Origin: Candidatus Reidiella endopervernicosa
GTDB lineage: Bacteria; Pseudomonadota; Gammaproteobacteria; GCF-013343005
Reading direction: 5' to 3'
DNA: 64,000 nucleotides
NCBI RefSeq assembly: GCF_013343005.1
Contig: NZ_CP054491.1
Location: 744,001-808,000 of the forward strand
The notes below the pieces were generated by a model that did not search any database, was not told where the DNA came from, and worked only from the letters and a program-made list of their open reading frames with translations. Shown here in pieces: positions 2,294 through 36,877 of this stretch. Numbering within the stretch: the stretch's first letter is position 1; every line of letters starts with the position of its first letter. The translations under genes were made by a program, and so were the position numbers.

Positions 2294-3346
2294 GTGCAAG
2301 AAAACATCATACTACTCATCATCTCATTCATACTGACGCTCTTTTTAGCAAGCTATCTGCGACCGATGGCCATCAAGGTAGGGCTCGTCGATCTTCCCTC
2401 TCAGCGAAAGCACCACAGTGGTGAGGTGCCGCTGCTGGGTGGGGTGGCGATGGGGGTCACATTCCTTGCGGTGCTGATACTGAGTGGTGTTCCGTTAGAC
2501 GGATATCGGGTTCTGATCGGTGGAGGGCTGTTGCTGATTTTCGTCGGTGTGCTTGATGACATCCATGAGCTCTCGGCCACTGCGCGAATGGTCATCCAGA
2601 TCAGCGTCGCCCTGCTGATGGTGACACTCGATGGGGTGGTGTCGGCCTCACTGGGAAATCTGCTGGGTCTGGGTAGTATCGAGATGGACGCATGGGCGAT
2701 CCCCTTCACCGTGCTGGCGGTGGTCGGAGTTATCAACGCCGTAAACATGTCGGACGGTATCGATGGTCTTGCAGGCGGCATTGTTCTGATCGCAGTGGCC
2801 TTCCTCGCGTTGGTCGCCGCCCTCTCGGGACGTACTAGTGACTTGACAGTATTGATGGTGTTGATCGGGGTGGTTGCAGGTTTTCTGATCTATAACTTCC
2901 CCTCGCGCTTCAGCAACCAGAGCAAGATATTCATGGGTGACTCAGGTAGCACCCTGCTCGGTTTTCTCGTCGTCTGGTTCATGCTATCGCTCTCGCAGGG
3001 GGAGGGGAGCGAGCTGCGCCCTGTAACTGCGCTCTGGATCCTTGCCTACCCGATCATGGACATGGCAGCGATCATGATTCGACGCAAACTCAAAGGGCGT
3101 TCGCTCTTCGCGCCAGATCGTGAACATCTGCACCACGTATTTCTACTGACAGGCTATTCGAGTAGAAAAACGGTCACGACACTGCTGCTGATTAATCTGC
3201 TGCTGGGCAGTATCGGGATTGTCAGCCAGATTATGGGGGTGGCCGAGTATGTGATGTTCTATGCATTTCTACTATTGATGCTTGCCTATCTCTTTGCCTT
3301 GCGCCATGCGTGGAAGCTGATGCGCGCAATCAAGAGCGATGGTTGA
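2294..3346 (+). CDS. WecA/MraY-family undecaprenyl-phosphate glycosyl-1-phosphate transferase
   Basis: This 350-residue membrane protein has the family's cytoplasmic motifs in order: NMSDGIDGLAGG near residue 150, FMGDSGST near 213, and DREHLHHVFL near 275 with the metal- and phosphate-binding histidines. LDDIHELS near residue 85 is the first acidic motif. The enzyme transfers a sugar-1-phosphate from a UDP-sugar to undecaprenyl phosphate at the inner membrane, starting a polysaccharide repeat unit. WecA (GlcNAc) and related enzymes share these motifs, so the sugar is not determined. The start is GTG at 2294. It fits the preceding polymerase and glycosyltransferase. Confidence 0.88.
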   Translation: MQENIILLIISFILTLFLASYLRPMAIKVGLVDLPSQRKHHSGEVPLLGGVAMGVTFLAVLILSGVPLDGYRVLIGGGLLLIFVGVLDDIHELSATARMVIQISVALLMVTLDGVVSASLGNLLGLGSIEMDAWAIPFTVLAVVGVINAVNMSDGIDGLAGGIVLIAVAFLALVAALSGRTSDLTVLMVLIGVVAGFLIYNFPSRFSNQSKIFMGDSGSTLLGFLVVWFMLSLSQGEGSELRPVTALWILAYPIMDMAAIMIRRKLKGRSLFAPDREHLHHVFLLTGYSSRKTVTTLLLINLLLGSIGIVSQIMGVAEYVMFYAFLLLMLAYLFALRHAWKLMRAIKSDG

Positions 3347-3410
3347 CTTGAACAACGCTTGATTAACGGGCTGGTGCAACTCCGCCAGATGGGTTTCAAT
3401 ACTCACCACC

Positions 3411-4949
3411 ATGAGAATCAGATCGTTACTCACACTACTCCCGCTGCTACTAATGAACTGCCAGATAGAGGCGGCCGGCTCTGCTGATCTCACGTTCCGT
3501 GACACCAGCGTCGTACTGACTCTTGAGGAGCTGGAGCTGCCTGAAAGTGAGCAGATGGGGCTCGCTGGCATCAGCTATCTGTTTAGACCAGAGCCCTGGT
3601 TCTATGTCGGTGGTTCCGCATACGGCGCGGCGACAGGCGAGCGCGGCGGTTTCTTCACGGGGGGGCTGACGGCCGGGCTTCAGAGCGATCCTGAGCGCTT
3701 GATCTCTCTCGATGGTGGTCTGTTTGTTGGTGGTGGTGGCGGTTCTGCCCCACAGGGTGGTGGTCTGATGATACGCCCCCACCTTGGCATCAGTCTCAAT
3801 AGCGGTATCGGGAGTGTCGGGCTGCAATATTCAGTAGTTCAGTTTCCCAACGGCGATATCGAAAGCAGCCAGTTTGCTCTCTCTCTCTCTCAGCCAACCT
3901 CTCTGCTACTCGGCAAAGGGTGGCTTGATGAGGATCGCTTCTTCTGGGCATTCCGAAATCTTGATAGCGAACGGCGGCTCGCTCCACACTCGCGCAGATT
4001 CCTGGCAACTCTCAAGTATTACCAACCACCAGAGGGAACCGTAGGTGCGGCCGGCAGCTTGAAAGAGGATGGGCACGCGGTGGTCGGTTTTGAGTGGAAC
4101 CGTGATTACGACAGTGGATTCTTCTACCGACTTGAATCATCCGGTGCGGCGGGGGGTACCAGTGACGGATTTGCTGAAATCCTCTTCGGTGGTGGCTATG
4201 GCATCTCACTGGCTGATCGGACCCGTCTGAAATTGGCTGTCGGTTTCGGCGCGGCAGGTGGCGGCGATGTGGAAACCGGTGGCGGAATTATTGCCGATAG
4301 CTATCTCGGTTTTGAGCACCAGTTTCAGAGCGGAATCTCCATCGGTGCCCGGGCTGGTTATCTAATTGCGCCAGACGGTGATTTCGAGGCGCTAACCTCT
4401 GCCCTGCAGCTCGGCTACTCCTTCGATGCACCCGATATCACGCCAGCTGGCGGCACGCTAGTGGCGCGTGACGAGTATGCACCTCAATTTATGCGCGTGC
4501 GGTTTATGCACCAGAGCTACCTGCCTGAGGAGGGAATGCGACGCAAGGGTGGGGCCGTTGATGATCGTCGCGTTGATCTGATCGGTGCCAAGTTCGACTA
4601 CATGCTGAATAGGCACGTCTACCTGACCGGTCAGGCGATCTCCGCCTACGCTGGCGGTGCCGGTGGTTATGCCGTTGGCCTGCTCGGTGCGGGCGTTACT
4701 CGCCCCTTCTGGCGCCACAGCCGCTTGCAGTGGAATGCCGAGCTGACAGTGGGGGCCGCCGGTGGTGGCGGTCTGCCGGTCGGTGGTGGTTATATCGTCC
4801 AGCCGATGGCAGGTATCGAGTATCTACTCACACCGAATATGGGAGTGGCCCTTAACGGTGGTCTGATCTGGGCGCCGGAGGGAGAGCTGACGGCGGGTCT
4901 GGTTGAATTTGGGATCAATTACCGTTTCAGTACGGTCGAAAGGCAGTAG
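3411..4949 (+). CDS. Putative outer-membrane beta-barrel protein built from repeats
   Basis: The 512-residue product starts with a clear signal peptide (MRIRSLLTLLPLLLMNC then IEAAGSA). The rest alternates glycine-rich turns with amphipathic strands and ends in FSTVERQ. At least three related units occur, with GGGLMIRPHLGISL near residue 122, GGGIIADSYLGF near 287 and VGGGYIVQPMAGIEYL near 460. Each is followed about 20 residues later by PNGD, PDGD or PEGE and an aromatic strand. This suggests a barrel or porin-like protein, possibly for polysaccharide export given its position, but I recognise no named family. A (CT)7 tract at 3877-3891 lies inside the coding region. Confidence 0.6.
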   Translation: MRIRSLLTLLPLLLMNCQIEAAGSADLTFRDTSVVLTLEELELPESEQMGLAGISYLFRPEPWFYVGGSAYGAATGERGGFFTGGLTAGLQSDPERLISLDGGLFVGGGGGSAPQGGGLMIRPHLGISLNSGIGSVGLQYSVVQFPNGDIESSQFALSLSQPTSLLLGKGWLDEDRFFWAFRNLDSERRLAPHSRRFLATLKYYQPPEGTVGAAGSLKEDGHAVVGFEWNRDYDSGFFYRLESSGAAGGTSDGFAEILFGGGYGISLADRTRLKLAVGFGAAGGGDVETGGGIIADSYLGFEHQFQSGISIGARAGYLIAPDGDFEALTSALQLGYSFDAPDITPAGGTLVARDEYAPQFMRVRFMHQSYLPEEGMRRKGGAVDDRRVDLIGAKFDYMLNRHVYLTGQAISAYAGGAGGYAVGLLGAGVTRPFWRHSRLQWNAELTVGAAGGGGLPVGGGYIVQPMAGIEYLLTPNMGVALNGGLIWAPEGELTAGLVEFGINYRFSTVERQ

Positions 4950-5069
4950 AATAGCCACCTAACAAATAGAGATGACATGAGTGTCATTGACGTTTCGGGA
5001 TTCTGCGCCCATATTTACTGGCCGTGCCCCGGCAGAAACTGCTGCATGGATGAGCTCCCAAGGTTTGAA

Positions 5070-5915
5070 ATGAATAAAGATAAGATCGTCGAATACTACG
5101 ATACCTGTGACAAGGACTACCGACTCGTGTGGCACCTCGATCGCTGCATGGCGATGCATATGGGTTTCTGGGATGAGGATACCAAGCGCATCAGCGAAGC
5201 CCTGATTCGTGAAAACGATATCCTTGCGCAGCAAGCCAATATCACCCCTAACGACCGCGTACTCGATGCAGGCTGTGGTGTCGGTGGTAGTTCAATCCAT
5301 CTGGCCAAGAACTACGGCTGTCACGTCACCGGCATTACCCTCAGCGGTAAACAGGTAGAGAGTGCTGAGCACTTTGCCGATCGCCACGGTGTCTCCGATA
5401 AAACCAATTTCCAGATCGCTGACTACACAAAGACCCCTTTTAAGGATGAGTCCTTTGACGTTATCTGGGCCGTCGAGAGTGTCTGTTACGCCCAGGACAA
5501 AAACGATTTCATCAAAGAGGCACACCGTCTGCTCAAGCCGGGTGGCCGTTTAATCGTGGCCGACGGCTTCCAGCGTGCCTCACCGCTATCACCCAAAGAG
5601 GAGCGCCTACTCTCAAAAAGCTATCTTGGCTGGGAGGTGCACAATCTTGAGACCGACGCACGCTTCAGAGATGGCATTGAATCGCACTCCTTCTCTAACA
5701 TTCGTGAAGACGATGTGACGCCGATGGTAATGACCTCGTCACGTCGCCTGCACCTCTACTCCTACCTCGCCTTTTTCGTCAACATCTACGGATGGCTGAG
5801 AGGGCGTCGTGGCCGTGTCGAAATGGGAAACGTCGTCGCTGCCTACAATCAGTACAAGAGCCTCAAACGCGGCATCTGGACCTATAAGACCTTCTACGCC
5901 GAGAAAATCAGATAA
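5070..5915 (+). CDS. Class I SAM-dependent methyltransferase
   Basis: The protein contains the SAM-binding glycine motif VLDAGCGVGGSSIHLA near residue 65, an acidic loop at ADY, FDVIWAVES (motif II) and LLKPGGRLIVADGF (motif III). The architecture resembles UbiE, sterol and tocopherol methyltransferases that act on lipid or quinone substrates. ATG 5070 is preferred because it has AAGG 7 bases upstream and gives the usual short N-terminus MNKDKIVEYYD. The longer open frame from 4977 adds a cysteine-rich leader that looks non-coding. The substrate is unknown. Confidence 0.85.
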   Translation: MNKDKIVEYYDTCDKDYRLVWHLDRCMAMHMGFWDEDTKRISEALIRENDILAQQANITPNDRVLDAGCGVGGSSIHLAKNYGCHVTGITLSGKQVESAEHFADRHGVSDKTNFQIADYTKTPFKDESFDVIWAVESVCYAQDKNDFIKEAHRLLKPGGRLIVADGFQRASPLSPKEERLLSKSYLGWEVHNLETDARFRDGIESHSFSNIREDDVTPMVMTSSRRLHLYSYLAFFVNIYGWLRGRRGRVEMGNVVAAYNQYKSLKRGIWTYKTFYAEKIR

Positions 5916-21065: not shown

Positions 21066-21989
21066 TCAATCATCCAGGTCGAGTGGCTGGGTTACGCCGG
21101 GAATCTCCGCCTCCTGTATAAATTCGAGAAACGCCTGTGCGGCACGTGAAAGGCGTTTGCCCCTGCGGTGTACGGCGTGCCAGCGTCGGCTGATGGGAAA
21201 ACCCTCCACATCGAGTACCACCAGTCGGCCTGTCTCCAGCTCCAGCTTGAGGCTGAAGGTGGAGAGGGCGCCGATACCGATGCCTGACATGACCGCCTGT
21301 TTAATTGCCTCACCGCTACCGAGCTCCATGTAGGGCTCAATGGAGACTCCCTTCTCTTTGAGCATCCGCTCGTAGGTCAAGCGAATGCCCGATCCCGCTT
21401 CACGGGCAATGACGCGCTCTTTGCTTAGTTGTTCCAGGGTGATGTTCTTCTTTTTAGCCAGCGGATGTTCAGGGTGGGCGAAGACCACCAGATGGTCGTC
21501 GAGGAAGGGGTGTGTCTCGATATCATCGCGCTGCGGCAGAGTGACCATGATGTAGAGGTCATCCTCGTTTGCATCGAGTCGCTCAATGATACGTTCGCGG
21601 TTACTCGCCTTGAGCTGTGGCACGACGTTGGGATGCTGGCGCAGAAAGGCACCGAGGTAGTTGGGCAGGAAGTACTTGGCGGTGGTCACGGCGGCGAGAT
21701 TGAGCGGACCGGCAACCTCGCCGTGAATCGAGGCGAGCTCCTCTTCGAACACCGCCAGCCTCTCAAATAGATCGTGACAGGTGGCAAACAGCGCCTTCCC
21801 CTCAGCGGTCAGATAGATCTGGTTACCGACCTTTTCAAACAGCGAAACCCCCAGAATCTCCTCCAATCGCTTCACCTGAATCGACACACCGGGCTGGGTG
21901 AGGTGGATCACCTCGGCCGCCTTGGTAAAGCTGCGATGCTCTGCAACTGCTTGAAAAACACGCAGTTGCTGCAGGGTTGCTCTGATCAT
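21066..21989 (-). CDS. cbbR: LysR-type regulator of the RuBisCO operon
   Basis: The 307-residue protein has an N-terminal HTH (LRVFQAVAEHRSFTKAAEVI, LTQPGVSIQVKRLEE) and the two-lobed effector domain of LysR regulators (AAVTTAKYFLPNYLGAFL, LDDHLVVFAHPEHPLA, GSGIRLTYERML). It lies directly upstream of cbbL on the other strand, the standard arrangement of CbbR. CbbR activates cbb transcription in response to metabolites such as NADPH or RuBP. A perfect palindrome at 22012-22027 lies in the shared intergenic region. Confidence 0.92.
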   Translation of the reverse strand: MIRATLQQLRVFQAVAEHRSFTKAAEVIHLTQPGVSIQVKRLEEILGVSLFEKVGNQIYLTAEGKALFATCHDLFERLAVFEEELASIHGEVAGPLNLAAVTTAKYFLPNYLGAFLRQHPNVVPQLKASNRERIIERLDANEDDLYIMVTLPQRDDIETHPFLDDHLVVFAHPEHPLAKKKNITLEQLSKERVIAREAGSGIRLTYERMLKEKGVSIEPYMELGSGEAIKQAVMSGIGIGALSTFSLKLELETGRLVVLDVEGFPISRRWHAVHRRGKRLSRAAQAFLEFIQEAEIPGVTQPLDLDD

Positions 21990-22153: not shown

Positions 22154-23575
22154 ATGGCTGAAAAGAGCTATAACGCGGGTGTAAAAGAGTACCGCGAAAC
22201 ATACTGGATGCCCGAGTACACCCCCAAGGATACCGATATTCTTGCGTGCTTTAAGGTTACCCCACAGCCGGGTGTACCGCGTGAAGAGGTTGCTGCCGCT
22301 GTAGCTGCTGAATCTTCAACCGGCACCTGGACCACCGTATGGACTGACCTGCTGACCGATCTCGATCACTACAAGGGTCGTGCCTACTCTATCGAAGACG
22401 TACCGGGTGATGACACCTGCTTCTACGCCTTCGTTGCCTACCCAATCGATCTGTTCGAAGAGGGTTCGGTTGTAAACGTAATGACCTCACTGGTCGGTAA
22501 CGTATTCGGCTTTAAGGCGCTGCGTGCTCTGCGTCTCGAAGATATCCGCTTCCCTGTTGCCTATGTAATGACCTGTAATGGACCACCTCAGGGTATCCAG
22601 GTCGAGCGCGATCTGCTCAACAAGTACGGTCGTCCAATGCTCGGTTGCACCATCAAGCCTAAGCTCGGTCTCTCGGCCAAGAACTACGGTCGTGCCTGCT
22701 ACGAGGGTCTGCGTGGTGGTCTCGACTTCACCAAGGATGACGAGAACGTTAACTCACAGCCCTTCATGCGCTGGCGTCACCGTTTCGACTTCGTTATGGA
22801 AGCGATCCAGAAGGCAGAGGCCGAGACCGGCGAGCGTAAGGGTCACTACCTGAACGTTACCGCGCCTACCTCTGATGAGATGATGAAGCGCGCCGAGTAC
22901 GCCAAGGAGATCGGTGCTCCGATCATCATGCACGACTACATCACCGGCGGTTGGGCAGCCAACACCCAGCTGGCACAGTGGTGTCAGGACAACGGCATGC
23001 TGCTGCACATTCACCGTGCGATGCACGCGGTACTCGACCGTAACCCCCACCACGGTATCCACTTCCGTGTACTGACCAAGATCCTGCGTCTCTCCGGTGG
23101 TGATCACCTCCACTCAGGTACCGTTGTCGGTAAGCTCGAAGGCGACCGCGAGGCAACCCTCGGCTGGATCGACATCATGCGCGACTCCTACGTCAAGGAA
23201 GACCGTTCACGCGGTATCTTCTTCGATCAGGACTGGGGCTCAATGCCTGGCGTACTTCCTGTTGCCTCTGGTGGTATCCACGTGTGGCACATGCCCGCGC
23301 TGGTTAACATCTTCGGTGATGACTCTGTACTGCAGTTCGGTGGCGGTACGCTGGGTCACCCCTGGGGTAATGCTGCAGGTGCTGCTGCTAACCGTGTTGC
23401 GGTTGAGGCCTGTGTTGAGGCGCGTAACTCAGGTCGTGAGCTGGAGAAGGAGGGTAAGGAGATCCTTACCGCCGCAGCAGCACACAGCCCAGAGCTGAAG
23501 ATGGCGATGGAGACCTGGAAGGAGATCAAGTTCGAGTTCGATACCGTCGACAAACTGGACGTTTCTCACAAGTAA
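22154..23575 (+). CDS. cbbL: RuBisCO form I large subunit
   Basis: The 473-residue protein has all main active-site segments: [16 protein letters not shown] with the carbamylated lysine near residue 195, [32 protein letters not shown] on loop 6, and [16 protein letters not shown]. Together with CbbS it carboxylates ribulose-1,5-bisphosphate in the Calvin cycle. Linkage to cbbQ and cbbO, and absence of carboxysome genes, point to form IAq. AAGAGGAGC lies 8 to 16 bases before ATG. The codon use is strongly biased, as expected for high expression. Confidence 0.98.
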
Positions 23576-23731: not shown

Positions 23732-24088
23732 ATGAGTGATATGCAAGATTACAATTCGAGCCTGGCCGATAACGCCAGCCGCAAGTTTGAGACCTTCTCA
23801 TACCTGCCGTCCATGGACGCGGATCAGACCCGCACACAGATCGAGTACATCGTGAGCAAGGGCTGGAACCCATCAATCGAGCACACCGAGCCGCAGAATG
23901 CGTCGGGTAGCTACTGGTACATGTGGAAGCTGCCTATGTTCGGTGAGACCGACGTAGATGCGATCCTGGCTGAGCTGGAGGCGTGCCACAAGGCGCACCC
24001 AGACAATCACGTTCGTCTGCTGGGCCTGGATAACTTTGCCCAGTGCGCAGGTGCCTCGATGGTTGTCTACCGCGGAGTCGCTGCATAA
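23732..24088 (+). CDS. cbbS: RuBisCO form I small subunit
   Basis: The 118-residue protein has the small-subunit features: [20 protein letters not shown] near the N-terminus, [25 protein letters not shown] and [16 protein letters not shown]. It caps the large-subunit octamer to form the L8S8 enzyme. The spacing from cbbL is 156 bases with GAGG about 10 bases before ATG. A strong terminator follows, so cbbLS may be made in excess over the downstream genes. Confidence 0.98.
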
Positions 24089-24146: not shown

Positions 24147-24229
24147 ATTAGGTGTGTGCAGTCAGTGTTGCTAAGAGAGTAGGCTTAACGCATTACCCGT
24201 TATTCACACCTAATGAGAGGAACAGAATC

Positions 24230-24541
24230 ATGGCAAAACCAGACAAGTATGTAGGCATCAACAATGAGATTAATGGTGGCATGACCACCATCGGCAAGAT
24301 CATTCGTGATGCGTGGGTATTTGGTTTACTACCCGAGTCAGAGACCTGCGAGGGATGGAACATCGCTGGAATCGACTCACTGCTACAGAAGGTCAACGCC
24401 GAATGGGACAAGTATGGCTGCCTGGTCAGCCACCTGCCCGAGGAGCTGGCCGAACGCCATAGCCGTATCCATGACGAGGCGCTCGCCAAGGCGAAAGCCG
24501 CCGGTTGGAACGGTGAAGTAGAGACCGACGACGAAGAATAA
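24230..24541 (+). CDS. 103-residue protein of the cbb cluster, paralogue a
   Basis: ATG 24230 with GAGAGGAA upstream is chosen because the protein then aligns end to end with the paralogue at 27833 (MAKPDKYVGINNE, GGMTTIGKIIRDAWVFGL, SETCEGW, VNAEWDKYGCLVSHLPEE). A longer frame from 24152 runs back toward the terminator and is unlikely. The protein is soluble, acidic at its end and has no cofactor motif. I recognise it only as a conserved hypothetical of RuBisCO-CbbQO clusters. A role in RuBisCO assembly or activation is inferred from position. Confidence 0.8.
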   Translation: MAKPDKYVGINNEINGGMTTIGKIIRDAWVFGLLPESETCEGWNIAGIDSLLQKVNAEWDKYGCLVSHLPEELAERHSRIHDEALAKAKAAGWNGEVETDDEE

Positions 24542-24565: not shown

Positions 24566-25381
24566 ATGACCGATATTACAGTTGATCCCGATCAGTACGT
24601 TATCAAGAAGGAACCCTACTACGAGGCGGTCGGCAGGGAGGTTGCGCTCTACGAGGCGGCCTACAACGCCCGCATGCCGATGATGCTCAAGGGGCCAACC
24701 GGCTGCGGTAAGTCGCGCTTTGTCGAGTACATGGCACACAAGCTCGGCAAGCCGTTGATCACCGTCGCCTGTAACGAGGATATGACCGCCTCCGATCTGG
24801 TTGGTCGTTTCCTGCTCGATAAGGATGGCACCAAGTGGCAGGACGGGCCGCTGGCCACCGCCGCTCGCATCGGTGCGATCTGCTACCTCGATGAGGTGGT
24901 CGAGGCGCGTCAGGATACAACCGTTGTTATCCACCCGCTGACCGACCACCGTCGCACCCTGCCGCTCGACAAAAAGGGTGAGCTGATTGAGGCGCACCCC
25001 GACTTCCAGCTGGTGATCTCCTACAACCCCGGTTACCAGAGCCTGATGAAGGATCTGAAACAGTCGACCAAGCAGCGTTTTGGTGGACTCGACTTCGACT
25101 ACCCGGAGGCGGAGATCGAGACCGCGATCGTCTCCAAGGAGTCGGGTGTCGATCCTGTGACCGCTGGCAAGCTGGTACAGATTGCCCATCGTGCTCGTAA
25201 CCTCAAGGGTCACGGTCTTGATGAAGGTATCTCGACCCGTCTGCTGGTCTACGCGGGTCAGCTGATCAGCAAGGGAATCGATGCCACCGAGGCGTGTTCG
25301 ATGACCATGGTCACCCCGCTGACTGACGATCCCGATATGCGCGACACGCTCGACGCAGCGGTACAGACCTTCTTCGGCTAA
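24566..25381 (+). CDS. cbbQ: CbbQ, MoxR-type AAA+ ATPase of the RuBisCO activase
   Basis: The 271-residue protein has Walker [11 protein letters not shown] near residue 42, Walker [13 protein letters not shown] near 108 and sensor region [11 protein letters not shown] near 150, as in CbbQ/NorQ. CbbQ hexamers with CbbO remove inhibitory sugar phosphates from RuBisCO active sites. It follows orf103a by 24 bases and lies 98 bases before cbbO. The length is typical. Confidence 0.96.
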
Positions 25382-25479: not shown

Positions 25480-27822
25480 ATGAGCATTAACCTCGAAGAT
25501 TACGAAGAGTTTCTGCAGGATGCCGCACCGGAGGTGCGCGACGTGCTTGATGGCACCTTCCAGGAGGCGGCTCGCATCATGTCGCCTGCCGGACTGCGGG
25601 ACTATATGGATGGCGCCAAGGGGCTCTGCAATCTGGGGCGCGGCAGTGATGTCGTTATCACCTACCTGCAGGAGATGCCGCAGGTTGCCAAGGAGTGTGG
25701 CGAGGATGTGATTCCCGATGTGATCACCGCGGCGATGAAACTCGCCTCGATGGTCTCCGGTGAGGTGGTTGGCCTGCTCTTTAGTAGCCTGCCCTCCGCC
25801 GCACGTAATCTCGGTGATGCCGAGCTGCTACGCGGCTACCTGACCCTGATCCACCAGCTCTCTGGTACCGCTGCACGCGGCCTGCGCCCGATGCTCAACC
25901 ATATGGATGAGCTGCTTTCGAAGCTGACCATCAGCGGCCTGCGCCGCTGGGCCAACTTTGGTGCCCAGGCCTACCGCCGCGATTTCAACAACCTGACCGC
26001 CTACTTCAATCTTGAATCGGCTGATAGCAAGGCGATGCTGCAGAAGGAGCGCCGCGGTGTACTCTTTATCAGGGTGCAGCGTAAGCTCAACTTCTACCTG
26101 CGCGCACTCTGGGGCCGTGATTTCTTCCTGCGTCCTACCGGCGCCGATTACACCGACTTCAAGCCCTACATCGAGAGCCGCATCTTCCATATGCCGGATG
26201 CGGTCGATGATCTCGGCGAGACCAGTGGACTGGAGCTCTACCGCGCTACCGCCGCACATATGGCGGCACATATGTCCTACACTACCAAGCCGATCTCGGC
26301 CGAGCAGCTCAGCCCGGCACAGATGTACTTTATCGGCATGCTCGAGGATGCTCGTATCGAGTACAAGGCGGTCAACGAATTCCCCGGTCTGAAGAAGCTG
26401 TGGGGAACGCTGCTCGCCCACGACTATGAGACGGCGGTTGAGCATCCGACCATGGAGCTTCTGGAGGATGTGGCGCAGATGCTGCTCGACAGCAACGCCT
26501 CTTGCGGTGATGAAGAGCTCAACGCCTTCGCCCAGCGCTTCCATGAGCAGGTTGTCGAGAAGCAGGACGACAACAGCTTCTCCTGGCACATGGGCATGGA
26601 GCTGTTCAACATCTTCTCCGCCCGCAAGGAGGTGCCGAGCCTACGCATCCTTGAACGCAACCGCATCTCCTACCGCGACGACAACCGCTTTATCTGGGAG
26701 TTCGAGGAGTTCGACTTCAACCTCGGTAAGGAGTACATCCCCGCCAGCCAGCGTCAGGTGCGCAAGCGGATGAGTGTCATCGAGATGGCCAACGAGGTCG
26801 ACTGTGAGCTGGCCGGTGACGATGCGCAGGAGATCTGGACCTGCGATACGGAGATGTACCCCTACGAGGATGATCTCAGCGAGAACCAGAAGAGCTTCAA
26901 TGACATGTGGGGCAAGGAGCCGGTCTCCGAGCCGTTCCACTACCAGGAGTGGGACTACCAGATCCAGCTGGCGCGGCCCGACTGGTCAACAGTCTATGAG
27001 CGCCGCCAGCCGAAGGGTGATGTCGATGACATCGAACAGATCCTTACCGACTACAAGCCAATTGCCCATCGCATTAAACAGATTATCGATCTGCTCACCC
27101 CCGAGGGTGTGCAGCGGGTGCGCAATATGGAGGATGGTGACGAGATCGATCTCAATGCCGCTATCGATGCGATGGTTTCGATCCGCATGGGCGAGCAGCC
27201 CAATCCACGCATCACCATGCGCAACGTACTGAAGAATCGCGACCTCTCGGTGGTGGTGCTGCTCGACCTCTCCGAGTCGACCAACGAGAAGATGGCTGGA
27301 TCGGACAAGACCGTACTGGAGCTGACTCGTGAGGCGGCGACACTGGTCGCCACCGCCATTGAAGGTATCGGCGATCCCTTTGCACTGCACGGTTTCGCCT
27401 CCGATGGGCGTCACGATGTGCAGTACTACCGCTTCAAAGACTTCAATCAACACTTCGACAATGAGGCAAAATCACGCCTGGCAGGAATGAAGGGTGGTCT
27501 CTCGACCCGCATGGGTGCGGCACTGCGCCACGCCGGTCACCACCTGCTCAAACAGCCTGAGCGTCGCAAGCTGATCCTGTTGGTCACCGATGGTGAGCCG
27601 GCCGATATCGACGAGCGTGATCCGCAACATCTGCGCCACGACACCAAGAAGGCGGTCGAGGAGCTCTACAGTCACGGCGTGCTCAGCTACTGCCTGACAC
27701 TCGATCCCAACGCCGACAGCTACGTTAAGCGCATCTTCGGCGAGAGCAACTACACCATTATCGACAATGTCGATCGTCTACCGGAGAAGCTGCCGACCCT
27801 GTTCGCCAGCCTGACCAGTTAG
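25480..27822 (+). CDS. cbbO: CbbO, von Willebrand factor A-domain subunit of the RuBisCO activase
   Basis: The 780-residue protein has a long helical N-terminal part and a C-terminal VWA domain with MIDAS residues in VVLLDLSESTNEKM near residue 595, then LVTDGEPADIDERD near 705. CbbO bridges CbbQ and RuBisCO through the metal-dependent VWA site. The next gene starts 10 bases after its stop, so co-translation is likely. It has the typical CbbO length and no damage. Confidence 0.96.
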   Translation: MSINLEDYEEFLQDAAPEVRDVLDGTFQEAARIMSPAGLRDYMDGAKGLCNLGRGSDVVITYLQEMPQVAKECGEDVIPDVITAAMKLASMVSGEVVGLLFSSLPSAARNLGDAELLRGYLTLIHQLSGTAARGLRPMLNHMDELLSKLTISGLRRWANFGAQAYRRDFNNLTAYFNLESADSKAMLQKERRGVLFIRVQRKLNFYLRALWGRDFFLRPTGADYTDFKPYIESRIFHMPDAVDDLGETSGLELYRATAAHMAAHMSYTTKPISAEQLSPAQMYFIGMLEDARIEYKAVNEFPGLKKLWGTLLAHDYETAVEHPTMELLEDVAQMLLDSNASCGDEELNAFAQRFHEQVVEKQDDNSFSWHMGMELFNIFSARKEVPSLRILERNRISYRDDNRFIWEFEEFDFNLGKEYIPASQRQVRKRMSVIEMANEVDCELAGDDAQEIWTCDTEMYPYEDDLSENQKSFNDMWGKEPVSEPFHYQEWDYQIQLARPDWSTVYERRQPKGDVDDIEQILTDYKPIAHRIKQIIDLLTPEGVQRVRNMEDGDEIDLNAAIDAMVSIRMGEQPNPRITMRNVLKNRDLSVVVLLDLSESTNEKMAGSDKTVLELTREAATLVATAIEGIGDPFALHGFASDGRHDVQYYRFKDFNQHFDNEAKSRLAGMKGGLSTRMGAALRHAGHHLLKQPERRKLILLVTDGEPADIDERDPQHLRHDTKKAVEELYSHGVLSYCLTLDPNADSYVKRIFGESNYTIIDNVDRLPEKLPTLFASLTS

Positions 27823-27832
27823 GAGGTTGAGT

Positions 27833-28144
27833 ATGAAGAGTGCAGAGAAGTATGTAGGCATTCACAACGACCGCAACGGCGGTATGACCGAGATGGGCAA
27901 GATCATCCGTAACGCCTGGATCTTCGGCATGATCCCCGAGCGCGAGAGCTGCGAGGGGTGGCCCGCCACCGGCATCAAGAAGCTGTGGCGTCGCGTCGAT
28001 GCCGAGTGGGAACAGTACGACTATATGGTCGGCAATCTGCCCGATGATCTGCGTCAGCGTTTCAGTCGTATCCACAGCGAGGCGGTCGAGCGCGCCAGAG
28101 AGAGTGGCTGGGAAGAGGGGTCCGAACTCGCCCGCGTGGCGTAG
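27833..28144 (+). CDS. 103-residue protein of the cbb cluster, paralogue b
   Basis: ATG 27833 is preceded by AGGAGG at 27822-27827. The sequence repeats the plan of the protein at 24230: KYVGIHNDRNGGMTEMGKII, RNAWIFGMIPERESCEGW, AEWEQYDYMVGNLPDD and a helical basic end. The two copies flank cbbQ and cbbO and have clearly diverged while keeping the same length, so both are probably selected. The function is unknown. Confidence 0.82.
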   Translation: MKSAEKYVGIHNDRNGGMTEMGKIIRNAWIFGMIPERESCEGWPATGIKKLWRRVDAEWEQYDYMVGNLPDDLRQRFSRIHSEAVERARESGWEEGSELARVA

Positions 28145-28162: not shown

Positions 28163-28558
28163 ATGTATACCCGCCACAACGAGGTGCCCGTCTATGCGAC
28201 TCGTGATGGTGAGATCAATGCGCTGCACTACAGCACCGTACAGACGGCGTTCAAGCGACTCGGTGAGGAGATCAGGCTCTCGATCCCAAAGCTGAAGACG
28301 CTCGATCTTATCCTGCAACGCGATGCCTGGATCGTCGTCGATCGCGCCTTCAACGATATTCCGGTGGTGGCGTGGACCGATTTCGAAACTCGACGTGAGG
28401 CGATCCATCTACCGGTGAAGTGTCAGCTGCGCTACTTCCACGCCAATGCCGTGATGATCAGAAACCGGGTGTTGGAGGCGATGGAGATGCTGCTGGGCGA
28501 ACAGCTTGAAGAGGAGAATGGATCGCATGATGTGATCGATTTTCCTGACAAGGAGTAG
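28163..28558 (+). CDS. 131-residue conserved protein of the cbb cluster, function unknown
   Basis: The protein starts MYTRHNEVPVYATRDGEIN and contains LDLILQRDAWIVVDRAFNDI and a helical acidic C-terminus. It follows paralogue b by 18 bases in the same operon. I see no signal peptide, membrane segment or metal motif. The beta-rich middle section with paired tryptophans could be a small regulatory fold, but I recognise no family. Confidence 0.7.
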   Translation: MYTRHNEVPVYATRDGEINALHYSTVQTAFKRLGEEIRLSIPKLKTLDLILQRDAWIVVDRAFNDIPVVAWTDFETRREAIHLPVKCQLRYFHANAVMIRNRVLEAMEMLLGEQLEEENGSHDVIDFPDKE

Positions 28559-28634
28559 TTAGGTAAACAAAATTTGAGGTCGCGTGCGCAACGCACTATC
28601 AGCACGCGAAAGCAATTTTGAACGGAGGTGCAGA

Positions 28635-30284
28635 ATGCCGCAGTTACCCAGCGGTAAGTACGTGGAGATCATGTCAGAACGGGCGCGCTACCATGCGCGT
28701 CGTCTGAAACTGCGTGTAACCAGCACTACCCCCCACCGTCAGCTCTACCCGCTGGTCGATATTCTGATCGACCCCACCAATAACACGCACGGCTGTCGTG
28801 GCTGCACCACCTTCTCCGGCCACACGCTCGCCGATCATGAATGGCTCGATCAGTTCGAGGAGGGTGACCGCCGCTGGTTTGCAAACTGGCTGCGCGAAGC
28901 TCCCCAGAGGCGGGTGATTGAGCAGGCGCGTACCCGTCTGTTGGCAGCGCGCAGCACCGCCAGTGAAGAGGTGCATGACTACCCCAGTCAGCTCTATAGC
29001 CAGCTTCGAGATCGTATCGAGGCACTGCCGCAGCAGCGAGCCAGTGCTGAGCAGTGGCAGCGCACCCTGCTCAACATGCGCCGTGACGGGTTGCGCCGTG
29101 AGGAGCTCGACTGGTCGAGGCTGCCGGAGTTTCTCTCTGAGCATGCAGGGGAGGCGGGCATCGATAAAGCGGCGCTACTCGAATCGCTCGACTTCACACA
29201 AATCGTGCCGCGACTGAGTAACGATCTGGAGTGTGACCTTGAGGCCCATCTTCCCTTTACCGAGGTGGCAAAACGCATTCCGACCTACCAGCTGCAGATG
29301 TCTGGTTACCCGATCGATGATCAGGATCTCTGTGTGGTGCGCTACCGATGTGAGTCGCCCAGCTACCGTATCGGAAGTGTGCGGCCGCATGGACGCGCAC
29401 TTCACGGTAGTGATCAGCCGCGCTGGTTTCTGCTCGCTCCCTACGGCAAGGTGGTGACCGATAGCGAGAACAGTGCGCTGTTTTTCCCCACCAGTGAGGC
29501 CGCGCTGCAGGCGGCCGATAACCATGCCCGCAGCAGCCATCGGCTACGCCCGGCACTCACCTACAGCAAGCCCTACGAATATATGAGCCTGCACGGTGGC
29601 GAGGCGTATCGAGAGTGGCTGGTGACGCTGCCAGACTACCACCGCTCCCACTTCACGGCCCACTACCATGAGCGCAATGTACTGCTGCATATCCGCACCA
29701 AGATTCGCCACAGCGAGGATGGTAGCAAGGTGCTCTTCATCGAAGAGCTACAGAGCGACTGGCAGCAGGCGATCGCTCAACACGGACTGCATAGTGGTAT
29801 TCCGTTGGCACCTTTTCGCAAGGAGTGGGCATCACTGGCGCTGAAATTGATGTTGATGCATGTGGTGAAGAGCGATCTTGACGGTATCGCCTGGGCCGAT
29901 GGTGCGGTGCATGCACTGCGCTACGACCGTGAAATGGGGCCGTTGATGCGACTCTACGATCAAGAGATCCCGCAGATACTGACCCGGCTGGCCAAGCCGT
30001 GGCAGGCGAGTGTTGAGCGTGCCTATTTTGAGACCCGTAGCCCCTGGTTGCATGCGGCGCGGTGCGATGAGTGCTGGAAGGTTGAGGGCGGCGCCGGCAA
30101 GTTCTCCACCCGTCCTCGTTATGACAAGAGCGAAGCACTGGCACTGATTCAGCGCCATACCAAGGCGCTCAGCATGAGTCTGCCGATCCTGCGTCTCTCT
30201 GCTGAGATGAAGAGGCATATCGCCGAGCACGGCCTGCCGCTATTTGGTGAGCAGACGAACAAACCAACCCCCTTAACTGATTGA
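28635..30284 (+). CDS. 549-residue protein with a phage/plasmid polyvalent-protein-type domain
   Basis: ATG 28635 has GGAGG 8 bases upstream. The N-terminal 200 residues are basic and helical with CRGCTTFSGH near residue 56. From about residue 325 the protein shows REWLVTLPDYHRSHFTAHY, NVLLHIRTKIR, VLFIEELQSDWQQ near 365, APFRKEWASLALKLML near 392, GIAWADG and LYDQEIPQIL near 440. That order matches a domain found in large polyvalent proteins of phages and conjugative elements (EE-(I/V)-QSDWHQ, W-x-x-x-x-LK, W-x-x-G, YD-x-x-xP-x-x-L). It lies between orf131 and the aldolase. The function in a RuBisCO operon is unknown. Confidence 0.75.
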   Translation: MPQLPSGKYVEIMSERARYHARRLKLRVTSTTPHRQLYPLVDILIDPTNNTHGCRGCTTFSGHTLADHEWLDQFEEGDRRWFANWLREAPQRRVIEQARTRLLAARSTASEEVHDYPSQLYSQLRDRIEALPQQRASAEQWQRTLLNMRRDGLRREELDWSRLPEFLSEHAGEAGIDKAALLESLDFTQIVPRLSNDLECDLEAHLPFTEVAKRIPTYQLQMSGYPIDDQDLCVVRYRCESPSYRIGSVRPHGRALHGSDQPRWFLLAPYGKVVTDSENSALFFPTSEAALQAADNHARSSHRLRPALTYSKPYEYMSLHGGEAYREWLVTLPDYHRSHFTAHYHERNVLLHIRTKIRHSEDGSKVLFIEELQSDWQQAIAQHGLHSGIPLAPFRKEWASLALKLMLMHVVKSDLDGIAWADGAVHALRYDREMGPLMRLYDQEIPQILTRLAKPWQASVERAYFETRSPWLHAARCDECWKVEGGAGKFSTRPRYDKSEALALIQRHTKALSMSLPILRLSAEMKRHIAEHGLPLFGEQTNKPTPLTD

Positions 30285-30293
30285 GAGATAGCG

Positions 30294-31451
30294 ATGCCAC
30301 TGGTACAGATGAAGGACATGCTACGCCACGCCTACGACAACCAGTACGCGGTTGGCGCCTTCGACGTGGTGAGCCTGGAGCTGTTGCAGGGGGTGATCCA
30401 CGCCGCCGAGCAGTGTCGTGCACCGGTCATTCTCGGTCTGGCCGAGCCGCATCTGCAGCACTTCGATATCGAACTGCTCGCCCCTGCGGTGGAGGCGGCT
30501 GCACGGCGTAGCAGTGTGCCGGTGGCGATCCACTACGACCACGGTAGTGGTGTGGAGGGAGCGGTGAATGGTGTTCGCCACGGCTGTAATGGTGTGATGT
30601 TTGACGGCTCTCACATGCCGCTGCAGGAGAATATCGAGACCACTAAGGCGGTGGTGGCGATGGCGCATGGCATCGGTGTGCCGGTTGAGGCAGAGCTCGG
30701 TTACATCCCCGATAATAGTGATGAGCTGGTCTTTACATCGGTGGAGGAGGCACGTGGTTTTGTGCGTCTTACTGGGGCCGACTTTCTTGCCGTCTCAATC
30801 GGTACCGTACACGGGCGGCTGGTTGGTAAACCGCGCCTCGACTTTCAGCGTCTGAAGCAGATCAACAAGGCACTACAGATCCCGCTGGTGCTGCACGGCA
30901 GCTCTGGTCTTAGCGATGATCACTTTCGCAAACTGATCGCCAGTGGCATCGCCAAGGTCAACTACTTCACCGCCATTACCGATCGTGTAGCAGAACTGCT
31001 ACGCAATAACGCCAAGGATGCCGATGACAACTACCTGAAGCTCCACAGCGGCGTCAGAGAGAGTGTGGAAGAGGAGGCGGGTCGACTGATGCGCGTCTGG
31101 GGCAGCGCCGGTCGCGCTGCAGAGGTGATGGAGCAGTGCCAGCCGTGGCACGGCATTGAGTACATGCTCAAGTTCAATCTCCCCGGCGTCGATGCCGAAG
31201 AGGAGGAACTGATTACCCGCAAGGGCAGAAAGATCCTGATGAAGATCCCCGGTGTACGCGAAGTGATGGTCGGCAAGGCCTACAACGATAGCTCGTCACA
31301 GCGCCACTGCTGGCAGCTGCGTCTGGCCAGCCCCGCCGTGGCTGAGATACTTAAACGTAATCACGATTTCCTGGGATTTAGTCGACGCTACCTACGGGAT
31401 GAAGCGACCGAGCTGACAGGGGCTGGTTATCAGCAATCGAAGGTGGCTTGA
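30294..31451 (+). CDS. cbbA: Class II aldolase with a C-terminal Dabb-like domain
   Basis: Residues 1-285 are a class II aldolase barrel with zinc-binding motifs IHYDHGSG near 78, PVEAELGYIPDN near 132, SIGTVHG near 168 and LVLHGSSGLSDDHF near 200. It probably splits or forms fructose- or sedoheptulose-bisphosphate in the Calvin cycle. The last 85 residues (ILMKIPGVREVMVGKAY, CWQLRLASPAVAEIL) resemble a ferredoxin-like Dabb fold and are not part of ordinary aldolases. The start is 9 bases after the upstream stop. Confidence 0.85.
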   Translation: MPLVQMKDMLRHAYDNQYAVGAFDVVSLELLQGVIHAAEQCRAPVILGLAEPHLQHFDIELLAPAVEAAARRSSVPVAIHYDHGSGVEGAVNGVRHGCNGVMFDGSHMPLQENIETTKAVVAMAHGIGVPVEAELGYIPDNSDELVFTSVEEARGFVRLTGADFLAVSIGTVHGRLVGKPRLDFQRLKQINKALQIPLVLHGSSGLSDDHFRKLIASGIAKVNYFTAITDRVAELLRNNAKDADDNYLKLHSGVRESVEEEAGRLMRVWGSAGRAAEVMEQCQPWHGIEYMLKFNLPGVDAEEEELITRKGRKILMKIPGVREVMVGKAYNDSSSQRHCWQLRLASPAVAEILKRNHDFLGFSRRYLRDEATELTGAGYQQSKVA

Positions 31452-32866: not shown

Positions 32867-34105
32867 ATGTATACCTCGTACACTCCCAATAGAGCTTTAG
32901 AAGCATGCCGTAAAGTGAGTGATCCCCTGGTCGCACTGGTCGATCTGGATGCATTCTTTGCACAGATCGAGCAGCTCGAGAATCCTCAATATCGTGGCAA
33001 GCCGGTCATCATCGGTGGCCGCCCAGGCGGTCGTGGTGTGGTTGCCACCGCCTCCTATGAGGCGCGTACCTTTGGGGTTCACTCTGCGATGCCGACCAAC
33101 ACCGCCTATCGCCTCTGCCCCGATGGCATCTTCCTACGCGGCGATATGGCCAAATACTCAGACTACTCGCGGCGTATCTTTGAGGCGCTACATGACGTGA
33201 CGCCAGTCGTAGAGAAGGCATCGGTTGATGAGTTCTATCTCGATCTCTCGGGGATGGAAAAGTTAAGCGGTTCAGCAAAAGAGATAGGGACACGATGTAA
33301 GGCGGTCATTAAAGAGGCGACTGGTCTCACCTGCTCGATCGGTATCGGTCCAAACAGATTAATAGCTAAACTCGCCTCGGAATATCGAAAACCGGATGGT
33401 CTGACCGTTGTTAGTAAAAACCAGATCAACCGCTTTCTCGATGCACTCCCACTCAAGGCGATGCGGGGGATCGGACCCAAGACCCTTAAGCGCATTGCCA
33501 AACTGAATGTGGAGACCATCGGACAACTCAGAGAGCGCTACACCCTGTCTGAACTGCAGCAGGCGGTTGGAGAGCGTACTGGTAGCAATCTCTATCATCA
33601 GTCGCGTGGTAGCTATCCAGAGCGCAGCGCAACACATAGGCCACGACACTCCGTATCGAAAGAGACAACCTTTAGTGAAGATATTAGTGATCCACAACAG
33701 CTAAAGCAGATTATGCAAAAACTTGCCTTTATGTGGCGCGTACACTAAGAAAAAAAAATCAGAAAGGAGATGTGATCAATATTCGGGTTCGTCTTGCTGA
33801 CTTCTCGACCTACACACGCCAACGTAAATTGAGCAGTGCGACCGATAGCGATGTGGAGATCGCGCGAGTTGGCTGGGAGCTGTTTGAGCAGAATGGTTAT
33901 GTGGGAAAGGCATTAAGGCTGATTGAGTCGGAGTGGTCGTCGCTGAAGAGCGTCCAACCAGGGAAGAGGGGAGCAGTCTCAAATCGATCTGTTTGCGACA
34001 GATGAGATTGAAAAGGATGTGGTTGACAGTGACAACGATGTGACCACGGCCATGGACGAGATTCTCGATAAGTTTGGTGAAGGTTCAATTCGGCGCGGTG
34101 GTTGA
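32867..34105 (+). pseudogene. dinB: DNA polymerase IV (DinB), frameshifted near the 3' end
   Basis: The first 280 residues are a good Y-family polymerase: LVALVDLDAFFAQIEQLENP, RGVVATASYEARTFGVHSAMP, EKASVDEFYLDLSG, SIGIGPNRLIAKLASEYRKP and the HhH segment MRGIGPKTLKRIA. A frame change near 33733 leads to VARTLRKKNQKGDVIN and RVRLADFSTYTRQ in the little-finger domain. Further changes near 33920 and 33965 lead to QIDLFATDEIEKD and a stop at 34103-34105. The palm and catalytic residues are intact but the DNA-gripping domain is broken. Confidence 0.87.
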
Positions 34106-34343: not shown

Positions 34344-35571
34344 GTGATCTGTTCTTATGGAATCACATACCTTTTTCTCCACCTGCTGATAATCCTGGTA
34401 TCTGCACGCGTCTTAGCTGAAATAGCCGTACGTCTGAATGCGCCTGCGGTTATCGGTGAGCTGGCTGCTGGCATTATTCTCGGTCCAAGTCTGCTTGGTT
34501 ATCTAGAGCCTACGGAAGCGATTCGCTTGTTGGCCGAAATAGGCATTATTTTATTGCTGTTTTCCGTGGGTCTGGAAACCGATGTCAAGCGATTGGTGGA
34601 TGCTGGTAGGCAATCGATCATTGTTGCCGTGTTTGGTTTTCTGTCGCCGTTACTGCTGGGATTTATTGCCGGCTATTACTGGTTCGGTTTTTCCCTGCTG
34701 GTCTCACTGTTTATTGGTGGCACGCTAACAGCGACCAGTATCGGTATAACTGTTCGCGTGTTATCAGACCTGAAACGACAGAAAGAGACTGAAGGTCAGG
34801 TTGTGCTTGGTGCTGCCGTACTTGATGACATTATGGGTGTTATGTTGCTGGCGTTCCTCTATGAGTTTTCAATCGGGGGCGGTCTAAGTTTTGCTAATGT
34901 TGGTCAGGTCATGCTATTTGTTACGCTGTTTTTGTATTGGCACCGGTCGTCGCCAAGCTGATCTCGCTGTTCATTAAAAAGGCAGATGAAGTCAAATATT
35001 TACCTGGCCTGATACCTACAAGCATTGTATCGCTGGTGCTCTTCTTTGCCTGGCTGGCCCATGTCGTTGGTGCTCCGGAATTGTTGGGTGGTTTTGCGGC
35101 AGGCTTGGCATTGTCGCGGCGATTCTTTCTACCCTTTGGTATTGCGCTTAGCATGGATCCAGTTTTCGCCAGACGCATCGAAGTGCGCATGTTGCCTATT
35201 ATTCAACGCTTCACACCGATTTTCTTTGTGATGATCGGTTTATCATTGAACCTGCGTGAGATCGACTGGGGATCACCATTCATCTGGATCTTTTCACTGG
35301 TGTTCTTTATTGTCGCGGTAATAGGCAAGTTTGTTGGTACATTGTTTATACCCCAAAATGGCCGATGCGCGTCATTATAGGCTTGTCCATGGTGCCCCGC
35401 GGAGAGGTCGGCCTTATATTCGCTGAGCTTGGGCATATAGCCAATATCTTCAATAATGAAGTGCATGCGGGAATGGTAATTGTCATCGCACTAACAACGC
35501 TAATACCACCCTTTTCAATCAAGGCGTTCTATTGCCGTGTGTATAGAAAACTCGATAAGTACCACCGGTAG
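34344..35571 (+). pseudogene. CPA2-type cation/proton antiporter, frameshifted twice
   Basis: Three open stretches form one Kef/Na+-H+ exchanger domain: LAEIAVRLNAPAVIGELAAG, IILGPSLLGYLEP, EIGIILLLFSVGLETDVK, then LDDIMGVMLLAF with the conserved DD-like pair. A frame change near 34937 leads to APVVAKLISLFIKK and FAAGLALSRRFFLP; one near 35365 leads to GLSMVPRGEVGLIFAELG, a conserved end motif. It would exchange Na+ or K+ for protons at the inner membrane. The start is GTG 34344 or, with one more shift, ATG 34358. Confidence 0.85.
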
Positions 35572-35712
35572 AAGGCTGATGATTGATCGGGGTGAGAAAT
35601 TAAACCGGATCAAAGAGCATTATTCTCTAATATTATTAACAATTGCTCTCTGAACCTCCCCAGTTTAACGGGTACTTTTAATAAGCGACAATGTCGCCAT
35701 AGGAGTATCCAA

Positions 35713-36084
35713 ATGACTAGAAAACGCAAGCCATATAAGACCTACACCAAAGAGTTCAAATTAGAAGCGGTTCGCCTGATGGATGAGTCTGATAGACCAG
35801 CCACTGATATCGCTATGGAGCTTGGTATTCGGCGTAATCAACTCTACAAATGGAAAGAGCAGTTATCCAACAAAGGAAACAAAGCCTTTGAAGGTCCGGG
35901 AAGGCCAAAGAAGCAGGATCAAAGCGAAGTCACCACCCTTCGCCAAGAGAATGAACGGCTGAAAGAGGAGCTTGAAATCCTAAAAAAAGCCGCCGCGTAC
36001 TTTGCGAGGATCTCAAGTGAAGTACGCCTTTATTCAATCGCTCAGCACAAAGCATCGAATTATACGGCTCTGTCATGCGCTTGA
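35713..36084 (+). CDS. IS3-family OrfA, copy 2, with altered C-terminus
   Basis: The first 96 residues equal OrfA of copy 1, including the HTH and zipper. One G is missing in the tract after TTTGCGAG, so the frame misses its TGA and adds RISSEVRLYSIAQHKASN before stopping at 36084. DNA binding may survive. Confidence 0.88.
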   Translation: MTRKRKPYKTYTKEFKLEAVRLMDESDRPATDIAMELGIRRNQLYKWKEQLSNKGNKAFEGPGRPKKQDQSEVTTLRQENERLKEELEILKKAAAYFARISSEVRLYSIAQHKASNYTALSCA

Positions 36085-36877
36085 TGTATCAGTGAATGGC
36101 TACTATTCATGGTGCAACCGACCTGAAAGCAAGCGCTCCATTGAGGATCGCCAGCTCACCGCTAAAATAAAGCTGTTTCACAAGGCAAGTCGGCAGATCT
36201 ATGGATCGCCTCGCATCCATAAAGATCTGCAAGAGATGGGCGAACGTGTTGGTGTTAATCGTGTGGCCAGACTGATGAGGGCAAATGACATTGCCTCTAA
36301 GATGGCTAGAAAGTTTGTCATAACGACTAACTCAAAGAACACGATGCAGCCCGCGCCAGATCTGCTTAAGCGAGAGTTTGATGTGGAAAGACCTGATAAA
36401 GCCTGGGTCTCTGACACCACCTTGATACCGACGCGGCAAGGGTGGCTTTATCTGGCCGTCATCATTGATCTCTATTCAAGGCATGTCATTGGCTGGGCTA
36501 TGAGCAACCATAACAACACTCTACTGGTGCAGGACGCACTCACGATGGCTATCTGGCGAAGAGGCCGAGTAGAGTCTGTAGTTGTGCACTCAGACCAGGG
36601 CAGCACCTATACTTCAGGTGACTACCAGAGGCTGTTGAAAGAGAGCTCATTACGCTGCAGCATGAGCCGTAAAGGTGAATGCCTGGATAATGCGGTGGCG
36701 GAAAGTTTCTTCGGTACACTTAAGACCGAACTGGTAGATTACGAAGATTACAAAACCAAACAGGAAGCAAAGCAGAGTCTGTTTGAATACATCGAAGTCT
36801 TTTATAACAGACGCAGGCGTCACTCGTACTTGGGGTATGTAAGTCCTGCAGAATACGAGGCAAAGTGTGCCTCTTAA
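36002..36877 (+). CDS. IS3-family OrfB, copy 2
   Basis: The DDE core is complete (WVSDTTLIPT, VHSDQGSTYTS, DNAVAESFFGT). In the copy 1 arrangement it would start GTG 36017; TTG 36002 is an upstream option. Because of the missing G, a -1 slip at the A7 tract runs into TGA instead of entering this frame, so the normal OrfAB fusion cannot form. It needs copy 1 in trans to move. Confidence 0.88.
   Translation: MRGSQVKYAFIQSLSTKHRIIRLCHALDVSVNGYYSWCNRPESKRSIEDRQLTAKIKLFHKASRQIYGSPRIHKDLQEMGERVGVNRVARLMRANDIASKMARKFVITTNSKNTMQPAPDLLKREFDVERPDKAWVSDTTLIPTRQGWLYLAVIIDLYSRHVIGWAMSNHNNTLLVQDALTMAIWRRGRVESVVVHSDQGSTYTSGDYQRLLKESSLRCSMSRKGECLDNAVAESFFGTLKTELVDYEDYKTKQEAKQSLFEYIEVFYNRRRRHSYLGYVSPAEYEAKCAS

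Follow-up and report, generated by a model that had tools for sequence, protein, structure and literature searches.

Among Gammaproteobacteria, some RuBisCO operons contain a solo, chromosomal member of a module of the giant polyvalent proteins of phages and plasmids, a module that is unnamed in Pfam and NCBIfam, and this placement is both real and unusual. The case described here comes from a stretch of 64,000 nucleotides of the genome of Candidatus Reidiella endopervernicosa (hereafter, the window), where a gene at positions 28635-30284 of the forward strand encodes a stand-alone protein of 549 amino acids that carries the module, predicted to adopt the GNAT fold, as judged by translation, tblastn searches, alignment of homologues and structural modeling.

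An optional gene of the cbb operon

The frame at 28635-30284 is free of internal stops and closes with a stop codon after 549 codons; an alternative GTG start is present in the same frame at 28584, and the alignments of homologues begin at the ATG. A ribosome-binding site, GGAGG, is read directly at 28624-28628 on the same strand, 7 nt before this ATG, and is evidently what a preceding sequence-only reading of the window had called the gene's own binding site. That reading had described a stand-alone gene located between orf131 and the aldolase gene of a carbon-fixation operon, which the gene order bears out, and had singled out four peptides, FIEELQSDWQQ, APFRKEW, GIAWADG and LYDQEIPQIL, that occupy, in this order, residues 368-378, 392-398, 417-423 and 440-449 of the translation. 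The genome holds a single copy of the gene. A promoter-like site at 28545-28573 was dismissed because 2 such sites were found against 4.7 expected by chance, as was an 8-bp hairpin in the 76-nt gap, which is not unusual (z -1.0).

The gene belongs to a chromosomal cbb cluster, not to a phage or a conjugative element. A cbbR-type LysR regulator gene (21066-21989, reverse strand) is divergent from cbbL (22154-23575), and all the other genes share the forward strand: cbbL is followed by cbbS (23732-24088), orf104 (24227-24541), cbbQ (24566-25381, with AAA_5/CbbQ_C domains; CbbQ_C, 1.2e-33), cbbO (25480-27822; VWA, 7e-9; at least 67% identity to relatives), orf105 (27827-28144), orf131 (28163-28558), the 549-residue gene, and fba (30294-31451), which encodes a class II fructose-bisphosphate aldolase (F_bP_aldolase, 1.5e-84). 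The large subunit is of form IA and ends in KLDVSHK, a type of C-terminus that is the motif of the CbbQO-dependent form IA RuBisCO (PMC8718961); no carboxysome genes lie between the operon genes of the window. The small orf104 and orf105 are paralogues, 54% identical, that flank cbbQ-cbbO and match no Pfam family, and single relatives of them occur in other cbbLSQO operons. The orf131 family, for which there is no Pfam or NCBIfam model, was found in 40 of the 80 genomes tested, most of them chosen for RuBisCO; it frequently has two members in a genome, and most members sit no more than a few kb from RuBisCO genes of form IA or form II. Given this spread, and its presence in operons that lack the 549-residue gene, orf131 was rejected as a dedicated partner and is best viewed as a general neighbor of RuBisCO operons. 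Elsewhere in the window, a 293-aa frame resembling DNA polymerase IV (DinB) seems to go on in a different frame at 33733-34005, as a frameshift would produce (32867-34005 overall), and at 34344-36877, two overlapping frames make up a gene resembling a cation:proton antiporter, with an IS3-type transposase pair after it.

A class-wide sample yielded a full homologue in 6 of 369 genomes, and deeper searches of three orders added about 30 more. In seven cbbLSQO operons, which come from three families, a copy follows cbbO, usually after cbbO-orf131: in families f1 and f125, these are the copies of the window, L037 (on the same contig as L002), L039, L040 and L013, and in family f141, those of L082 and L083. 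The eighth linked copy, L041, is adjacent to cbbR; at 3189-5844 of this locus, the homologue is divergent from a cbbR that is 69% identical to that of the window, on a stretch that has no RuBisCO genes; the cbbLSQO operon is located elsewhere in the same genome (G381). In L082 (genome G513), a small, frame-broken gene separates cbbO from the homologue (1943-2633), and orf131 is undetectable. The majority of the cellular homologues, about 24, reside away from cbb genes, next to msrA, GFA, DUF6901 and similar genes, in placements that are stable within a genus. The neighbor survey that the sequence-only reading had proposed therefore returned neither purely random placement, given the seven copies behind cbbO and the one by cbbR, nor specificity for RuBisCO, given the two dozen or so elsewhere. 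Furthermore, G375 and G378, the latter a congener of G377, possess the operon complete with orf131 but with no 549-residue gene behind it, so that the presence of the gene in the operon is optional.

Co-occurrence with RuBisCO adds little to this picture. RuBisCO is present in all 38 homologue-bearing genomes tested and in all 47 genomes chosen, but the base rate in the class is 187 of 369 genomes (51%), and every tested relative from family f125 that lacks the gene has RuBisCO as well; this line of support was accordingly set aside. In the class-wide sample, all six homologue-bearing genomes encode RuBisCO, an outcome with a chance probability of about 1 in 60 among genomes that are related to one another.

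The module, its predicted fold and its altered loop

The kinship of the 549-residue protein with polyvalent proteins is manifest in searches of several kinds. The tblastn relatives include a solo protein of the Caballeronia plasmid pSBC2-5 (residues 128-540, 1e-37), with other plasmid proteins also matching, and the search extends to Pelagibacter phage HTVC028P (4e-7) and to a giant LPD23 polyvalent protein of a P. aeruginosa plasmid (7e-5). When viral contigs were searched with the alignment of the cellular family, 541 of the 600 listed viral stretches that matched the peptide patterns proved to encode relatives, which puts the number of viral relatives at 541 or more, and Foldseek against predicted phage polyvalent proteins gave 3e-14. 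Six giant proteins were scanned for known domains: three of the five from phages contain LPD38, ART-PolyVal or LPD22, and the one from a plasmid contains LPD23 and eight ART-PolyVal stretches. The profile and structure searches thus uphold the kinship that the sequence-only reading had asserted and had offered for refutation by such means. Nothing significant was found for the window protein in Pfam, NCBIfam, PHROGs or PADLOC, and the lack of any score from the Pfam, NCBIfam and PHROG families might suggest a chance resemblance; the many independent significant matches, co-linear across some 430 residues, already refute this idea, leaving it with a negligible probability. Neither Pfam nor NCBIfam has a model for the module, and it is in this sense that we call it unnamed, given that the 2017 survey of polyvalent proteins by Iyer et al. 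describes two GNAT families (PMC5512222). In our literature search, the motif appeared in no paper, and no paper linked polyvalent proteins to RuBisCO.

The sequence-only reading had confined the resemblance to residues 300-549; the C-terminal location holds, but the extent does not, because the module spans about residues 115-545. Its N-terminal helical part (residues 115-195; 28977-29219, forward strand, as for the parts that follow), with the pattern SAEQW..T..N..G.R.EE..WS, is common to the phage modules and was modeled with pLDDT mostly above 90. Next comes an insert of the cellular family (residues about 196-319; 29220-29591), absent from the phage modules and mostly of low model confidence, and then, the predicted GNAT-fold core (from residue 310 or 320 or thereabouts to 545; 29592-30269). 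Residues 1-114 and about 196-305 are specific to the cellular family. The window protein retains the co-linear motifs of the module, SAEQW..EE..WS, GG..YRE, H....N, R, E-x-QSDW, APF...W..L..K, YD..iP and GxPLFG, and six residues, all in the core (R354, E371, Q373, S374, D375 and W376), are invariant across bacteria and phages; the phage copies are interrupted solely by insertions. No further known polyvalent domains were recognized in the 549-residue protein with Pfam, NCBIfam and PHROGs, so it is a solo form, a polyvalent protein being one that combines between 2 and 15 different domains in a single chain.

The GNAT fold of the module is a prediction from two models. The AlphaFold2 model of the window protein, built from an alignment of 66 phage modules and one close relative, is of high confidence at residues 120-190 and 320-545, and a whole phage module was modeled with AlphaFold at a pLDDT of 88.9. 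For both models, the best 50 VIA-align matches all have the GNAT fold, the top one being the C-terminal domain of Mycobacterium tuberculosis ICL2 (Z 9.9 and 10.1, over 130-150 residues), followed by AtaT/TacT/KacT, GCN5, NatD and Elp3; the two models share nearly the same input sequences and are, therefore, not fully independent. Foldseek against the PDB was weak (best E-value 0.014), sequence-profile searches of PDB sequences revealed no link to any solved structure, and none of the 68 modules matches any Pfam GNAT model. The predicted strand 4 of the module bears Glu residues, and it is on this strand that the base of several GNATs is located.

The loop after strand 4 (residues 376-389; 29760-29801, forward strand), at the position that holds the CoA phosphates in GNATs, reads WHQxGxxxGY in relatives and is altered to WQQAIAQHGLHSGI in the window protein, which has WQQAIAQHGLHS where the core pattern HQxGxxxGY was sought. 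This pattern is kept in 65 of the 66 phage modules and, outside the cbb-linked lineages, in all 24 cellular copies. It was lost twice, each time in a cbb-linked lineage: once in that of the window protein, L037, L038, L039 and L040, and separately in L082 and L083. The loss is not a rule for every operon copy, since the cbb-linked L013 retains the loop and L041 retains most of it, with one glycine changed; conversely, L038 belongs to the loop-less clade, yet was not seen in a cbb operon. The canonical acyl-CoA signature, Q/R-x-x-G-x-G/A, was not found in residues 373-391. Because the candidate cofactor loop is changed, it appears doubtful that the window protein is an enzyme.

Descent, selection and possible role

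In the phylogenetic tree, the cellular copies form one clade (support 100/99), the nearest neighbors of which (96/83) are solo forms from a plasmid and from an integrase-bearing island, with the phage modules outside. The island form is a 448-aa solo protein of genome G588 (L174, 7433-10657), which is accompanied by a tyrosine integrase and transposases. The origin from a mobile element that the sequence-only reading had suggested is compatible with this tree in the form of recruitment from mobile solo forms, and transfer from mobile elements to cells is the likely direction, although it is inferred from the branching order under midpoint rooting and falls short of proof. The operon-linked copies make up two subclades of a larger group that includes the non-linked genus g263, a topology that one gain of the operon position followed by loss and two gains would fit equally. 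The gene remains under purifying selection: dN to the nearest relatives is 0.28-0.43, while synonymous sites are saturated or nearly so. Amino acid change is about three times faster than in CbbO (dN of 0.28 versus 0.09), and the relative in G418 is broken into fragments.

There is good support for the protein being a domesticated GNAT-fold module, and a RuBisCO-directed role is plausible. In the reading that we prefer, an ancestor of autotrophic Gammaproteobacteria would have taken a solo form from a mobile element, the captured form would have acquired the N-terminal region and the central insert, and, in some lineages, the gene would have settled at the end of cbbLSQO operons. There, its own ribosome-binding site would serve for translation, and its expression would probably accompany that of RuBisCO and its activase. 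The protein would then most likely bind or regulate an enzyme of the carbon-fixation operon, as the GNAT-fold C-terminal domain of ICL2 regulates isocitrate lyase. The E-x-QSDW core is kept, but most operon-linked copies have lost the CoA loop, so that a recruited partner with a binding or regulatory task appears a better fit than a classical acetyltransferase, and this is the explanation that we tentatively rank first, at somewhat less than even chances. A more specific and, in our estimate, unlikely proposal is that the protein is a third helper of form IA RuBisCO beside CbbQ and CbbO that would sense a metabolite or make contact with the complex of RuBisCO and CbbO, its ancestral cofactor loop having been remodeled at least twice to suit this role.

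The faster amino acid change than in CbbO weighs against a partner of the operon enzymes. Two further points against such a partner, namely, that most homologues are found at many unrelated places away from cbb genes and that sister operons lack the gene, speak for a passenger or defense gene, that is, a captured module, perhaps directed against phages or plasmids, that sits behind the cbb genes only for their strong promoter. The 2017 survey puts forward the idea that captured copies may be directed at incoming elements (PMC5512222), and the fragmented relative in G418 points the same way; nevertheless, the position after cbbO is shared by seven operons from three families, with the eighth copy by cbbR, both loop changes fall in cbb-linked lineages, and no PADLOC model matches. 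We consider this possibility to be close behind the preferred one, at roughly one chance in three. An active acyltransferase that modifies the aldolase or one of CbbL, CbbO and CbbQ with an acyl group from acyl-CoA or from some other donor, in line with the suggestion of the sequence-only reading that a recruited enzyme may modify or regulate RuBisCO or CbbQO, would agree with the predicted fold and with the six invariant polar or aromatic residues shared by phages and bacteria, along with the Glu residues on strand 4, but is less likely because the candidate CoA loop has changed and the canonical signature is missing, so that we rate it as improbable. Fragmented relatives and patchy presence could also be taken to indicate a neutral, decaying leftover of an old mobile element; such a relic would hardly be full-length and free of stops, with a good ribosome-binding site, an intact invariant core and far fewer amino acid changes than silent ones relative to its homologues, and it is already disfavored to the point of being very improbable.

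Comparison with known systems

The giant polyvalent proteins that host LPD22, LPD23, LPD38 and ART-PolyVal (PMC5512222) share with the window protein the co-linear module from SAEQW..EE..WS to GxPLFG, including the invariant R and E-x-QSDW; in contrast to these multidomain hosts, which in phages reach 3,600 aa, the window protein consists of a single module in 549 residues, with a cellular N-terminus, an insert and an altered loop after QSDW. The pSBC2-5 protein and the 448-aa protein of G588, its nearest relatives in the tree, are likewise solo and carry the same module, but lie in mobile DNA beside integrases or transposases, and the N-terminal region is absent from the island form. Phage polyvalent proteins contain the module very often, yet it has no Pfam family name, and a chromosomal solo form in a well-understood metabolic operon offers a tractable route to its function. 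Should this form prove to act on RuBisCO, the main carbon-fixing enzyme would have gained a new regulator, and central carbon metabolism would have recruited a conflict protein of mobile elements.

Among proteins of the predicted fold, the GNAT toxins AtaT, TacT and KacT and the acetyltransferases GCN5 and NatD match the predicted models structurally (Z 8-9.5), whereas the window protein has no detectable sequence similarity to them and no canonical CoA loop, and no antitoxin-like gene was recognized beside it. The best structural match, the C-terminal domain of ICL2, likewise has a GNAT fold that is undetectable by sequence. This domain is fused to its enzyme, binds acetyl-CoA and turns the enzyme on (PMC6788997), whereas the window protein, if indeed it has a comparable fold, is encoded separately.
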